Assembly: GCF_035917275.1 (NCBI RefSeq)
Contig: NZ_CP108508.1
Coordinates: 2,356,001-2,420,000, forward strand
DNA length: 64,000 bases
Source: Streptomyces sp. NBC_01237
Lineage (GTDB): Bacteria; Actinomycetota; Actinomycetes; Streptomycetales; Streptomycetaceae
Reading direction: 5' to 3'
Positions 8,086-21,779 of the stretch are shown here, piece after piece. Under the pieces are notes generated by a model that saw only the letters and a program-made list of their open reading frames with translations, did no database searches and had not been told where the DNA came from. Numbering within the stretch: position 1 is the stretch's first letter; each line of letters opens with the position of its first letter. The translations under genes and the position numbers were made by a program.

Positions 8086-8286
8086 ATGCAGGCCGCGCCG
8101 GTCCGTGCCCACGCCATCCCGTCCGTCACCGATGCCCTCCGCGCCGTCGAGTCGCTGCTGCTGAGCAGCGGCCAGCGCACGGCCCGCCGCAACGCCTGGA
8201 CAGCGGTCCTGGAGGACCGCCGCCGGGCCAAGGACCGGGTCGAGGCCCTGCACGTACTGGAGGCCGTGGCCGACCAGCGTTCCTAG
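8086..8286 (+). CDS. Small conserved hypothetical protein
   Basis: A 66-aa protein starting at an ATG about 9 bases after AGGGGA. It is rich in Ala, Arg and Leu, has no signal peptide or cysteines, and is probably one or two helices (VTDALRAVESLLLSSG, then LEDRRRAKDRVEALHVLEAV). It sits between lipA and the DUF4191 gene, 19 bp before the latter. I recall a similar small ORF in this place in other Streptomyces genomes, which supports a real gene. The function is unknown. Confidence 0.65.
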   Translation: MQAAPVRAHAIPSVTDALRAVESLLLSSGQRTARRNAWTAVLEDRRRAKDRVEALHVLEAVADQRS

Positions 8287-8305
8287 GCCACGTAAACTTC
8301 TGTGC

Positions 8306-9013
8306 ATGGCGAGGAAGGCAAACACTGAAGGCGCGGACAGCGCCGAGAACGCGGGGCGGCTCAAGCAGATCGCCCTGACCTACAAGATGACCAGGCGGAC
8401 CGACTCCAAGATCGGTCTTGTCGTCGCGGGTGTGGGAATCGTCACCTTCGGTGTCCTCCTCGCCATCGGCTTCGTGGTCGGGCATCCGGTCTATCTGGGC
8501 ATCCTGGGCTTCGTACTGGCCCTCCTCGCAATGGCGATCGTCTTCGGGCGGCGTGCCGAGCGGGCGGCCTTCGGGCAGATGGAGGGGCAGCCCGGCGCGG
8601 CGGCGGCCGTACTGGACCGGGTGGGCCGTGGCTGGACCACGACGCCCGCGGTCGCGATGAACCGCAGCCAGGACGTGGTGCACCGCGCCGTCGGCAAGGC
8701 CGGCATCGTGCTGGTGGCCGAGGGCAACCCGAACCGGGTGAAGTCACTCCTGGCGGCCGAGAAGAAGAAGATGGCCCGCATCGTGATCGACGTACCGGTG
8801 CACGACATCATCGTCGGTGACGGCGAGGGCCAGGTGCCGCTGAAGAAGGTCCGCACCAAGATGCTGAAGCTGCCCCGCGTCCTGTCCGGCCCGCAGGTGA
8901 CCGCGGCCAACGACCGGCTGCGGGCGATGGGCGACCTGATGAGCAACATGCCGCTGCCGAAGGGGCCGATGCCCAAGGGCATGCGGATGCCGCGCGGCGG
9001 AAAGATGCGCTGA
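8306..9013 (+). CDS. DUF4191 family membrane protein
   Basis: A 235-aa protein of the actinobacterial DUF4191 type. After a basic cytoplasmic N-terminus (residues 1-35) come two adjacent membrane segments (about 38-60 and 64-82) and a long basic cytoplasmic domain with the conserved stretch VGKAGIVLVAEGNPNRVK. The tail is rich in Met, Pro, Gly and Lys (PLPKGPMPKGMRMPRGGKMR). No clear ribosome-binding site precedes the ATG, so translation may be leaderless or coupled to the small gene upstream. It ends at a strong hairpin shared with the convergent RDD gene. Function unknown. Confidence 0.8.
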   Translation: MARKANTEGADSAENAGRLKQIALTYKMTRRTDSKIGLVVAGVGIVTFGVLLAIGFVVGHPVYLGILGFVLALLAMAIVFGRRAERAAFGQMEGQPGAAAAVLDRVGRGWTTTPAVAMNRSQDVVHRAVGKAGIVLVAEGNPNRVKSLLAAEKKKMARIVIDVPVHDIIVGDGEGQVPLKKVRTKMLKLPRVLSGPQVTAANDRLRAMGDLMSNMPLPKGPMPKGMRMPRGGKMR

Positions 9014-17698: not shown

Positions 17699-17895
17699 AC
17701 GGGCCAGTGTGCCCGGTCCGCTTATGGGGTGGCGGTGCGCGAAGGTGGGCGGATACGTTTCTCCGGCCGGCCGCGGGACTTCGGCTGCGACTTCCGGGAC
17801 TTGCCTATGAAGCAGTGATTTCGCTGTTCGCGCCTCCATTCCCCGGCCGGCTCCCCGGTACCCGTACGGGCCGGTGAAGCAGCACGGGGGAATCC

Positions 17896-19470
17896 ATGAC
17901 CACGACAGACGCCGTTCCCGGGACCGCAGACGCCGTTGCCCCGGGCGCCGTTTCCGATGCCTCTGGCGCCGTTTCCGAGACCTTGGCCGACCTCGTCGCC
18001 GCCGAGGACGTGCTGCTCTTCGTCAATGCGGCGATCACCGCGACCGGGCAGCGTGAATTCCACTCGGGGGCGTACCAGCAGCAGTTGTCGCTGGACTTCC
18101 TGCATGAGTACGTACGGGTCAACTACCGCCGGGTGTACGCCTCTTCGCTCGCCCTGGACATCAACGACCACAATGCCGCGCTCATCGTACGGAGCCTGCT
18201 GGAGACCGCCGCCGACGCGAGTGCCGAGGAGCGGCGCACCGAGGGGCGGCTGATCGCGGCGCGGCTGGCGGTGCTGCCGCCGCAGCGCGTCTACCGGCTG
18301 TTCGGTGCGCTGCGCCGGGCCAAGGTCAACAACCGGCGCACGCGGGCGATCATGCGCGACTGGCTGGCCGCCCGGCCGGACCTGGCCCACGACGCGGTGA
18401 AGTACCGCGGCGGGCTGAAGACGGCCGCCCGCCACGTCCATCTGCGGTGCCCGGAGGGTGACGGGCCGCTGGGCGAGGTGGGTGCGTTCCTGTTCCGGTC
18501 AGGGAAGCAGCCGCGCTACCGGCACGGGCTGCTGGACGCCTGGCGCCGGGCCCACTACGAGCAGGGTGCCGTCCACGAGCTGCCGTTCACCGTCGCCGAG
18601 GGCTTCGCCGCCCGGCACGGGATGAAGCGTGAGGTGTTCCTGGAGCGGGCGGCGCCCGGGATGACGCGGCTGGAGCGGCTGCGCACCTTGGGGCAGCGGT
18701 CCACCGGCGCCGAGCCGCGGCGGCCCTCGGACATCGATCTGACCGTGATGCCGCTGACCCGGCTCGCCCTGTACGTACTGTCGCTCGGCTTCGACGTGCG
18801 GGCGGCCGACCGTGCGGAGCTGACCGGTGCGCTGCGTGCCGCGGCCCGCCGGGCGGCGGGTCCGTACGCCGGGAGCTGGGGGCGGGTGGCCGCCGTGCTC
18901 GACGACAGTTACTCCTCGTCCGGGTCGGGCCAGAAGCGCCGTCGTCCGCTCGCCGTGGCGCTGGCCTGCCATTTCCTGCTGGAGGCGCTGGCCGCACCCG
19001 GCGCGTACCGCCCGCTGTGGACTTCGGGCTCCACCGATCCGCTGCTCGTACGCCCCTGGGGGCCGACCCCGCTGGGGATGCGCGTCCTGGACGCGCTGGA
19101 GCCCGGTTCCGGAGGCGCGCCCGACCGGCTGATCATCGTGTCGGACGGCTGGGACAACGCGCCGCCCGGACTCGCGGGCGAGGTGCTGCGGGTGTGGCGG
19201 ACGCGGCTGGATCCCGGGCGGCGGACGGCGGCCGTGCACCTGAACCCCGTATACGACGCGGACGGTTTCGATGTCCGCCGGCTGGCACCGAGTGTGCCGA
19301 CGGCAGGGGTCCGGGACGCGGAGGATCTGCCGTCGCTGGTGGAGATCGCGCAGTTCGCGGAGGGGCGTACGGGGCTCGGTGAGCTGTACGCGTACCTGGA
19401 CCGGCAGGTGGCGCGCTTCCTGGACGGCGGGGCGGGCGACGAGGTACGGATGGAGGGGACGGCACGGTGA
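17896..19470 (+). CDS. TROVE (Ro60-like) RNA-binding/vWA domain protein
   Basis: A 524-aa protein, close to the length of Ro60/Rsr (about 530-540 aa). An Ala-rich N-terminus is followed by a helical repeat region (about 35-330) that I read as a TROVE-type HEAT-like ring. It includes the stretch MPLTRLALYVLSLGFDVR, similar to MPLTALLRNL of Ro60. The C-terminal vWA-like domain has the metal-ion site D-x-S-x-S (DDSYS, residues 336-340) and IIVSDGWDN near 415. Ro60 proteins bind Y RNAs and misfolded RNAs. The stop overlaps the start of the ARPP-2-like gene (GTGA). No Y-RNA-like sequence was found within 200 bp. The family call rests on recalled similarity. Confidence 0.6.
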   Translation: MTTTDAVPGTADAVAPGAVSDASGAVSETLADLVAAEDVLLFVNAAITATGQREFHSGAYQQQLSLDFLHEYVRVNYRRVYASSLALDINDHNAALIVRSLLETAADASAEERRTEGRLIAARLAVLPPQRVYRLFGALRRAKVNNRRTRAIMRDWLAARPDLAHDAVKYRGGLKTAARHVHLRCPEGDGPLGEVGAFLFRSGKQPRYRHGLLDAWRRAHYEQGAVHELPFTVAEGFAARHGMKREVFLERAAPGMTRLERLRTLGQRSTGAEPRRPSDIDLTVMPLTRLALYVLSLGFDVRAADRAELTGALRAAARRAAGPYAGSWGRVAAVLDDSYSSSGSGQKRRRPLAVALACHFLLEALAAPGAYRPLWTSGSTDPLLVRPWGPTPLGMRVLDALEPGSGGAPDRLIIVSDGWDNAPPGLAGEVLRVWRTRLDPGRRTAAVHLNPVYDADGFDVRRLAPSVPTAGVRDAEDLPSLVEIAQFAEGRTGLGELYAYLDRQVARFLDGGAGDEVRMEGTAR

Positions 19471-20585
19471 ACAGGCTGGATCTGGGCGGCCTCGCGGTCC
19501 GGCCCGCGCAGGTGTGGGGCGGCGTCCGGCTGGTCCCGCTGGTACGCGAGGAGCCGGTGGCGGGCCTGCGGCTGCACCGGGAGGTCTACGGGGGCTTCGG
19601 CGCGGGCCTGGTGGAGGCCGGCCCGCGCACGCACTACGCCTCGTACATCCCGCACGGTCTCGTCGCCGACTGGTCGGGCGAGGGGGCGCAGTCGGCGGCG
19701 TACGGTACGCAGCTCGACGACGGCACCCCGGCGCGCACGGTCCGGCTGCCGAAGTACCGGCATCACCGGATGGCCAAGCGGCGGCCCGGCGACCGGCTGC
19801 GCTTCCTGCCGCTGCACCTGGCCCTGGAGGGCTATCTCGCCCTGCACTTCGGCGGCCCCTCGGTCGCCTGGGAGGAGTGGTCGCGCCAGGCGCTGCGCGA
19901 GGGGCTCTCGCCGCGCGCCGAGGACGCCTACCTCGGCTGGTCGGTGCGCGGCCTCGGTGACGCGCTGCGGATCTTCGAGATCCATCCCGGCCAGTGCGGC
20001 GTCATGGTGTACGTCTCCGACGCGCTCGCCGCCGCCTTCGTGCTGCCGCACCCGGAGGACTACCGGCTGCTGCACGCCACGCTGGTGGAGGACCTGTTCG
20101 GGGAGCTGGTGCACCAGTACGCGATGTACGGGGCGCCGGTGGCGGAGTTCGGGGCGCGGATCCGGGACGGCGCCGGTCTGCGGACGCTGGATGATCTGCG
20201 GGCTGCCGCGCGGGCGCAGGAGCGGGCGTGGACGGAGGCGCACGACACCCTGTTCGCACGGGAGCTGCTGGATTCGTCGTACGGGTTCGACCGGGTGTAC
20301 CGGATGGGTTCGTTCACCCTGTGGCGGTTCCTGCCTCCGTTCGTACGGGACGGGAGCGGTCAGCACATCGGGGAGACGATCACCGACCACCGCGGGCAGG
20401 TCGCCTATCTGAAGACGTTCCGGCTCTCCGACGCCCAGGTCAGGCGGGGGTATCTGCTGCGCACGCTGTTCGACGCGGACTGGTCGCTGTCCCGGGCCGC
20501 CGTGACGCTGGGGACGACCGGGGAGGAGCTGGCGCGGCGGCTCCGGGCGGCGGGATTCGCCGCGCTGCTCAAGGGCCATGTGTAG
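19467..20585 (+). CDS. ARPP-2-like protein, partner of the TROVE protein
   Basis: A 372-aa cytoplasmic protein beginning at a GTG that overlaps the TROVE stop. It resembles proteins I recall being annotated ARPP-2 (ARG and rhodanese-phosphatase-associated protein), with the conserved opening AVRPAQVWGGVRLVPLVREE, the central IFEIHPGQCGVMVYVSDALA, and YRMGSFTLWRFLPPF. The C-terminus (about 335-370, DADWSLSRAAVTLGTTGEEL) looks like a Fis-type helix-turn-helix. ARPP proteins were predicted in gene neighbourhoods linked to RNA and nucleotide-based conflict or repair systems. Coupling to a TROVE gene fits an RNA-related role, but no biochemistry is known to me. Confidence 0.55.
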   Translation: MNRLDLGGLAVRPAQVWGGVRLVPLVREEPVAGLRLHREVYGGFGAGLVEAGPRTHYASYIPHGLVADWSGEGAQSAAYGTQLDDGTPARTVRLPKYRHHRMAKRRPGDRLRFLPLHLALEGYLALHFGGPSVAWEEWSRQALREGLSPRAEDAYLGWSVRGLGDALRIFEIHPGQCGVMVYVSDALAAAFVLPHPEDYRLLHATLVEDLFGELVHQYAMYGAPVAEFGARIRDGAGLRTLDDLRAAARAQERAWTEAHDTLFARELLDSSYGFDRVYRMGSFTLWRFLPPFVRDGSGQHIGETITDHRGQVAYLKTFRLSDAQVRRGYLLRTLFDADWSLSRAAVTLGTTGEELARRLRAAGFAALLKGHV

Positions 20586-20689: not shown

Positions 20690-20744
20690 CGCGTCTTGCG
20701 AAGCTGCGCGGTAGAGACCGCAGCACCCGCAAAGGATGGCGTCC

Positions 20745-21779
20745 GTGACGTTCAAGGCTGAGTACATCTGGATCGACGGCACCGAGCCGACCGCCAAGCT
20801 TCGTTCGAAGACGAAGATCATGGCCGGATCCCCCTCGCAGGACGTGGCGGAGCTGCCCATCTGGGGCTTCGACGGTTCGAGCACCAACCAGGCGGAGGGC
20901 CACGCCTCCGACCGGGTGCTGAAGCCGGTCTTCAGCTGTCCGGACCCGATCCGCGGCGGCGACGACATCCTCGTCCTGTGCGAGGTCTTCCACATCGACA
21001 TGACGCCGCACGAGTCCAACACCCGTGCCGTGCTGCGTCCGTTCGCCGAGCGGTTCGCGGGCCAGGAGCCGATCTTCGGCATCGAGCAGGAGTACACCTT
21101 CTTCGACGGCCACCGGCCGCTCGGCTTCCCCGAGAGCGGCTTCCCGGCCGCGCAGGGCGGCTATTACTGCGGTGTCGGCGCCGACGAGATCTTCGGCCGT
21201 GACATCGTCGAGAAGCACCTGGACAACTGTCTGCGGGCGGGGCTGGGCATCTCCGGCATCAACGCCGAGGTCATGCCGGGCCAGTGGGAGTTCCAGGTGG
21301 GCCCGCTGTCCCCGCTGGAGGTCTCCGACCAGCTGTGGATCGCCCGCTGGCTGCTGTACCGCACCGCCGAGGACTTCAACGTCTCCGCGACCCTGGACCC
21401 GAAGCCGGTCAAGGGCGACTGGAACGGCGCGGGCGCGCACACCAACTTCTCCACCAAGGCGATGCGCGAGGGTTACGACGCGATCATCACCGCGTGCGAG
21501 TCGCTGGGCGAGGGCTCCAAGCCGATGGACCACGTCAAGAACTACGGCGCGGGCATCGACGACCGGCTGACCGGTCTGCACGAGACCGCCCCGTGGAACG
21601 AGTACAGCTACGGCGTCTCCGACCGCGGCGCCTCGGTCCGCATCCCGTGGCAGGTCGAGCAGGACCGCAAGGGCTACATCGAGGACCGCCGTCCGAACGC
21701 CAACGTCGACCCGTACGTCGTGACGCGGCTGATCGTCGACACCTGCTGCACCGCGCTGGAGAAGGCCGACCAGGTCTGA
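20745..21779 (+). CDS. glnII: Type II glutamine synthetase GlnII
   Basis: A 344-aa eukaryote-type glutamine synthetase (GSII), a heat-labile second enzyme for ammonium assimilation found in Streptomyces and rhizobia. Signatures are WGFDGSSTNQAEG near the N-terminus, the active-site motif GIEQEYTFFDG, and KPVKGDWNGAGAHTNFSTK for nucleotide and ammonium sites. It lacks the Tyr adenylylation loop of GSI, so GlnE should not regulate it. An ATG at 20736 overlaps the ribosome-binding site AAAGGA, whereas the GTG at 20745 has correct spacing and is chosen. A GlnR-like operator precedes it and a strong hairpin follows. Confidence 0.95.
   Translation: MTFKAEYIWIDGTEPTAKLRSKTKIMAGSPSQDVAELPIWGFDGSSTNQAEGHASDRVLKPVFSCPDPIRGGDDILVLCEVFHIDMTPHESNTRAVLRPFAERFAGQEPIFGIEQEYTFFDGHRPLGFPESGFPAAQGGYYCGVGADEIFGRDIVEKHLDNCLRAGLGISGINAEVMPGQWEFQVGPLSPLEVSDQLWIARWLLYRTAEDFNVSATLDPKPVKGDWNGAGAHTNFSTKAMREGYDAIITACESLGEGSKPMDHVKNYGAGIDDRLTGLHETAPWNEYSYGVSDRGASVRIPWQVEQDRKGYIEDRRPNANVDPYVVTRLIVDTCCTALEKADQV

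Follow-up and report, generated by a model that had tools for sequence, protein, structure and literature searches.

A candidate Y-RNA-like structured RNA upstream of a Ro60-like/ARPP-2 gene pair in Streptomyces

The DNA analysed here (the window; 64,000 nucleotides of Streptomyces sp. NBC_01237, contig NZ_CP108508.1, positions 2,356,001 to 2,420,000 of the forward strand) contains two overlapping genes, A and B, coding for a Ro60-like protein and an ARPP-2 protein, and a candidate Y-RNA-like RNA directly upstream of them. Computation shows that the RNA element is conserved, that its structure is backed by covariation, that its position is retained and that it co-occurs with the two genes, which form a fixed pair; it also gives the product of gene A a Ro60-like predicted fold. 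Proteins and loci near-identical to those of the window come from Streptomyces.

Layout of the locus and products of the gene pair

The features of the locus, numbered from the first letter of the window, are:

17754..17759, plus strand: -10-like hexamer TACGTT (TANNNT), recognised by its placement relative to the terminal stem of the RNA
17765..17852, plus strand: candidate Y-RNA-like structured non-coding RNA, from conservation, covariation and the lack of an Rfam family
17896..19470, plus strand: gene A, Ro60-like protein of 524 amino acids with a HEAT-like helical region and a vWA domain, from the predicted structure
18901..18915, plus strand: vWA metal-site motif DDSYS of A (D336, S338, S340), kept in the alignment including the Nostoc-type, Alkaliphilus and phage relatives
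19467..19470, plus strand: stop/start overlap GTGA between A and B, read from the sequence; RTGA in 66 of 80 loci
19467..20585, plus strand: gene B, ARPP-2 protein of 372 amino acids, Pfam PF22549 with E 2.2e-123 over residues 4-281
20424..20561, plus strand: C-terminal Fis/NtrC-type helix-turn-helix of B, residues 320-365

A first-pass annotation, made from the letters of the sequence, had described the first protein as TROVE/Ro60-like with an intact vWA metal site, and the prediction agrees with it, although the protein falls outside Pfam TROVE. The model of A (pLDDT, the predicted local distance difference test, of 76) consists of a HEAT-like helical region, presumably a ring, followed by a vWA domain, and its top five Foldseek matches are all Ro60, Rsr or TROVE proteins. 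Whole-length Ro60 matches outrank other vWA proteins in Foldseek, and they do so in the VIA structure matches as well, except for Rea1 MIDAS chains, which tie with the lowest Ro60 rows. The metal-site residues D336, S338, S340 and D417 are all present in the alignment. The protein thus looks Ro60-like and, as far as the model goes, would be a bacterial relative of the human RNA-surveillance protein Ro60. PADLOC and NCBIfam gave no match for the proteins of the locus up to E 1, and sequence searches of solved structures with A or B returned nothing useful. Other proteins of the same genus (L170-L175, L177) match Pfam TROVE over no more than a short stretch in its later part (about positions 289-351).

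The second protein had been read as ARPP-2 with a C-terminal Fis-type helix-turn-helix, overlapping the first gene by GTGA. The overlap lies at 19467-19470, B scores above the cut-off for Pfam ARPP-2, and the VIA structure match recovers the Fis/NtrC-type fold of its last ~50 residues; the VIA rows for B span residues 265-365 only, the model being too poor for the N-terminal domain. PMC9503650 proposes that ARPP acts as an enzyme on ribose moieties in ADP-ribose-related systems and that a cysteine and a glutamine are absolutely conserved, residues whose mapping onto Q176 and C177 of B is uncertain. Q176 is common to the partners in the window, Nostoc, Alkaliphilus and phage, and C177 occurs in 27 of 30 alignment rows but not in the Nostoc, Alkaliphilus and phage relatives.

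Conservation, fold and transcription of the RNA element

Alignment of the DNA upstream of A from 24 sequences revealed a conserved island, which ends 43 bases before gene A and in which mean majority-letter identity is 0.93, compared with 0.66 on the upstream side and 0.67 on the downstream side. Run on 155 sequences, a profile made from 41 seeds of actinobacterial origin gave one match each in 122, namely in 79 of the 80 named loci (L037, which starts inside A, lacks one), in 30 of 30 A-centred loci of the same genus, in the window, in nine B-centred loci, most of them truncated at the ends, and in three of three Nostoc plasmids (E 1e-8 to 6e-8). The 33 sequences without a match are L037, B-centred loci with a flank of ~1.5 kilobases (kb), loci retrieved because of other matches, and those of the phage and of Alkaliphilus. 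L047 and L062 keep only the 5' half of the element.

The fold was derived by RNAalifold from an alignment of 44 of the 90 distinct elements. It contains 22 pairs, arranged as a terminal helix of 8 base pairs, one bulged base, the four pairs GGGA/UCCC, an internal loop, a helix of 7 base pairs and a hairpin of 3 base pairs, so that the 5' and 3' parts of the element, presumed to be the ends of a transcript, pair into a conserved terminal stem. The bulged base is C in 86 of the 90 distinct elements, including that of the window. Paired cells amount to 99.7% compared with 95.7% in shuffles, and sliding the pairing partners lowers the paired fraction to 33-47%. Double-sided changes occur at 9 of the 22 pairs and in 31 cells, as opposed to 3.0 and 3.9 in shuffled controls (0 of 500 shuffles reach either value), a comparison that is inflated by the relatedness of the sequences. 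Those in the terminal helix stem mostly from three near-identical Nostoc sequences in which several terminal pairs are swapped in a compensatory manner; further double changes are found within actinobacteria, e.g. at columns 6/87, 14/80 and 39/53, and the inner helices covary with G-U intermediates (GC/GU, UG/CG). Folding ten sequences singly gave z-scores of -2.1 to -4.5, with the terminal helix present in all ten.

Of 93 distinct actinobacterial upstream sequences, 83 have a TANNNT hexamer whose first letter lies 11 bases ahead of the RNA, a placement from which transcription would begin with the first base of the terminal stem. In all 98 plus-strand elements measured, the RNA lies on the same strand as the pair and just upstream of it, its 3' end being separated from a conserved codon near residue 35 of A by a median of 58 nucleotides (range 31-178), while the spacer from RNA to start codon is not conserved (0.67). 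On the Y-like reading the RNA would be made as a discrete molecule of ~87 nucleotides and bound by the Ro60-like protein.

No family in Rfam 15 matches the element, which gave sub-threshold matches to unrelated families only; since it matches no known Y RNA family, it is called Y-RNA-like and is not placed as a Y RNA member. The first-pass annotation had found no Y RNA in the vicinity, a statement that is not supported in view of the candidate directly upstream of gene A. It had also proposed a covariance-model search for a Y-like RNA, and such a model of the element (R1) detects it in 45 of 295 genomes of the same genus, with a single copy in each.

Two other candidates were set aside. A YrlA match (RF02553) elsewhere in the genome of the window reaches 38.4 bits against a cut-off of 69, at a place where genes for tRNA-Asn and tRNA-Met are located. 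Two viral contigs hit by an exact pattern derived from the RNA hold no relative of A or B, and R1 scores only one of them (18.2 bits, E 0.12); both matches are therefore treated as chance. R1 found no match in 11 loci around TROVE-family matches, and no RNA in the ~1.5 kb to each side of the partial TROVE matches in L170-L175 and L177.

Co-occurrence, distribution and distant relatives

Scanning the named genome collection for ARPP-2 turned up 218 places, and the analysis used the 80 best loci. A Ro60-like gene, whole or partial, lies immediately upstream of ARPP-2 in all 80; a single alignment without a stop covers A over at least 450 residues in 73 of them, and 66 share the four-base RTGA overlap. 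Among the 295 genomes of the window's genus, some possibly of the same species as the named loci, any match to ARPP-2 was found in 47 and any match to A in 47. When only substantial matches are counted, A and B occur in the identical 42 genomes and neither gene occurs alone; this count sets aside short ARPP-2 fragments in G369, G503, G505, G544 and G564 and short Ro60-like fragments in G419, G450, G503, G552 and G658. Within the 42, A is single and full-length in 38 and B in 38, the split or partial copies being those of both genes in G508, G609 and G670, of A in G542 and of B in G579. The adjacency that the first-pass annotation had proposed to survey holds in both samples; it had named a predicted structure lacking the ring or vWA fold, and unlinked genes, as results that would speak against it, and neither arose.

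The 45 genomes scored by R1 comprise every one of the 42 that have both genes and, in addition, G505, G552 and G651. In G552 the RNA adjoins fragments of A and B and in G651 a fragment of B, while for G505 one search gave a short ARPP-2 fragment and another a chance-level match (E 0.87). The flanking sequence of an oxidoreductase-like gene upstream is not seen at the RNA site in Kibdelosporangium; together with the co-occurrence, this finding assigns the RNA to the Ro60-like/ARPP-2 locus rather than to the gene upstream.

The intact RNA beside fragments of the protein genes (loci L165, L166 and L167 of the same genus) suggests that the locus has decayed while the RNA persisted. In L047 (6436-7726) and L062 (6734-7720), the 3' half of the RNA is missing together with ~420 codons of the Ro60-like gene, and unrelated sequence of ~1.0-1.3 kb stands in their place; the end points of the replacement are nearly identical in both, and ARPP-2 is interrupted in L047 and full length in L062.

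Sampling across the phylum gave a match at E <= 0.001 in 7 of 396 genomes, with three passing the ARPP-2 cut-off, so the distribution of the locus is patchy. Phage records and viral contigs searched for ARPP-2 yielded none. The protein searches listed the best 120 of 1377, 1506 and 1444 matches; cyanobacterial relatives of A are many, every named one among the best 120 of 1444 matches listed being cyanobacterial. Relatives with 47-48% identity to A and 42% to B occur on three plasmids of Nostoc, two of which are typed as conjugative. Two of the three plasmids have xisH and xisI between the Ro60-like and ARPP-2 genes (L082 and L083, each at 8204-8943), which the third (L084) does not, and in L083 the A-like stretch has no annotated gene.

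More distant Ro60-like proteins are encoded on an Alkaliphilus (Clostridia) plasmid, with 22-25% identity to A, and by the uncultured jumbo phage LR756500.1, with 21-22%. Both genes are followed within 60 bases by an ARPP-1 gene (E 1.2e-22 and 6.3e-25, respectively), directly so in the phage (L121, 5902-8513), and these ARPP-1 proteins cross-match ARPP-2, above the cut-off in Alkaliphilus and below it in the phage. Both end without a Fis-type helix-turn-helix, so the pairing of Ro60-like and ARPP proteins is independent of that domain, and the earlier idea of a DNA-binding partner as the core of the system is weakened. The flanks of the phage gene, read as sequence only, showed no RNA. Upstream of the Alkaliphilus pair (L122, 6226-6472) lies a strongly folded intergenic stretch (z -6.6), judged by eye and by folding to comprise ~200 nucleotides followed by a terminator-like hairpin, although the terminator scan called none there. 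It holds GCGAYTTCCG once, against 0.01 expected in the locus, a motif also present in the window RNA. GCGATTTCCG, which opens a helix in this stretch, differs by one base from GCGACTTCCG, the string in the window RNA and in two Nostoc RNAs out of three. The stretch is a lead and is not counted as a member of the RNA family.

Interpretation, rival explanations and neighbourhood

The Ro60 plus small RNA plan is already known. In Salmonella, Rsr and Y RNAs share one operon with RtcB (rsr-yrlBA-rtcBA), and in D. radiodurans Rsr is tethered to PNPase by a Y RNA (PMC7790460). The present locus resembles these systems in the Ro60-type fold with vWA domain (predicted here), the small structured RNA beside the protein gene, itself a trait of Y RNAs, and a protein partner in the operon. 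It differs in that the protein lies outside Pfam TROVE, the RNA has no Rfam family and is upstream of the gene, ARAGORN finds no tRNA in the window, and the partner is ARPP-2 instead of RtcB/RtcA or PNPase. With vertebrate Y RNAs the element shares paired 5' and 3' ends that form a terminal stem with one bulged pyrimidine (the Ro60 site, PMC4726728); no sequence homology is claimed, and the window RNA has no poly-U tail at its 3' end. The partner belongs to the same ARPP superfamily as the ARG-associated systems, Pfam PF20208 and PF22549 cross-matching, and PMC9503650 places ARPP in predicted immune systems, but the two-gene partners there are HIRAN, WYL and deacetylase proteins, and TROVE is not mentioned in its main text. 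Jumbo-phage TROVE proteins (PMC7824862; PDB 9kop, 9l5y) are likewise Ro60-type RNA-binding proteins, and the phage examined here pairs one with ARPP-1, but without an R1-type RNA. The literature search found no paper on this RNA family, which is absent from Rfam 15; the Ro60-like/ARPP partnership was not met in the literature examined, and the pair may already appear in the surveys of Burroughs and Aravind.

The ~87-nucleotide Y-RNA-like RNA, the Ro60-like ring/vWA protein and the ARPP-2 partner probably form a three-part unit, an RNA-handling ribonucleoprotein, in which the element looks like a new Y-RNA-like family. The RNA would start at its own -10-like box and its ends would pair. By analogy with Y RNAs on Ro60, the stem formed by these ends, with its bulged pyrimidine, most likely binds the outside of the Ro60-like ring, and the ring would then receive damaged or misfolded RNA by its single-stranded ends. 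ARPP-2, translationally coupled to the Ro60-like protein, could be the effector or adaptor of the particle, its helix-turn-helix bringing it to DNA or setting expression of the locus. A role in RNA surveillance or a damage response may follow from the same analogy, and the pair might serve in RNA sensing or repair. More tentatively, this could be an undescribed type of Ro60 ribonucleoprotein in which a new Y-RNA-like family and ARPP replace the known Y RNA and RtcB/PNPase, the module or its Ro60-like/ARPP core serving in RNA damage or phage conflict across actinobacteria, cyanobacteria (conjugative plasmids included), a plasmid of Clostridia and a jumbo phage.

Several observations weigh against the ribonucleoprotein. 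The missing Rfam match means that the element is neither YrlA nor a vertebrate Y RNA; its bulge is U in 4 of 90 distinct elements, one of the ten single folds (L080) departs from the consensus in its inner part, and the opposite-strand bulge of three nucleotides in vertebrate Y RNA is not clearly reproduced, an internal loop following after four pairs instead. A has no match above cut-off to Pfam TROVE PF05731 or to any Pfam family, for which reason it is termed Ro60-like and not placed as a Pfam TROVE member. The model of B is poor (pLDDT 49.6), and no cysteine is common to all ARPP partners in the window, Nostoc, Alkaliphilus and phage, which leaves no commitment to cysteine catalysis. R1 scores nothing in the Alkaliphilus or phage locus. 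In the window and in Nostoc L082, a sigma-70 scan requiring a -35 box calls no promoter and a terminator scan finds none between RNA and gene, so that the element may be an mRNA leader or may use another type of promoter.

The first of these options, a cis-acting leader of the Ro60-like/ARPP-2 mRNA (an autoregulatory protein site or a riboswitch) in place of a free Y-like RNA, is favoured by the uniform position just upstream on the same strand in all 98 elements and by the uncalled terminator. It is nevertheless unlikely, as the hexamer puts the start of the stem at +1, the ends pair as in Y RNAs, the distance to the start codon is not conserved and Alkaliphilus has a separate folded stretch with its terminator-like hairpin. 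A function at the DNA level, with the element serving as an operator or a site of recombination to which e.g. the helix-turn-helix of ARPP-2 binds, would suit the inverted-repeat ends and such a partner, but is improbable in view of the G-U intermediates in the inner helices, which fit RNA, of an 87-nucleotide span with a bulge, odd for an operator, and of the three genomes in which the element is intact and only gene fragments are retained. vWA domains are common in chaperone systems, and the absent Pfam TROVE match and a pLDDT of only 76 could be taken to mean that the pair is a vWA-type chaperone or maturation pair unrelated to RNA, sharing mere architecture with Ro60. This is very improbable, given that whole-length Ro60 matches rank above other vWA proteins (save the tying Rea1 MIDAS chains in VIA) and that a structured RNA accompanies the Ro60-like gene across two phyla.

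If the ribonucleoprotein reading holds, a locus of <3 kb with RNA, protein and partner in tractable bacteria would allow one to ask what the RNA does to the ring and what role the partner has, and could show whether nuclease and ligase partners are dispensable for the ring/RNA plan. For the little-studied ARPP family the locus supplies a link to RNA that can be tested, and the element adds an RNA family that Rfam 15 lacks.

Downstream of the pair, the gene at 20736-21779 of the window encodes what we take, from its sequence, to be a protein resembling glutamine synthetase. A homologue also lies downstream in 53 of 81 gene sets (the 80 loci and the window, read with a crude gene picker), indicating that the Ro60-like/ARPP-2 locus is often found at the same chromosomal address.
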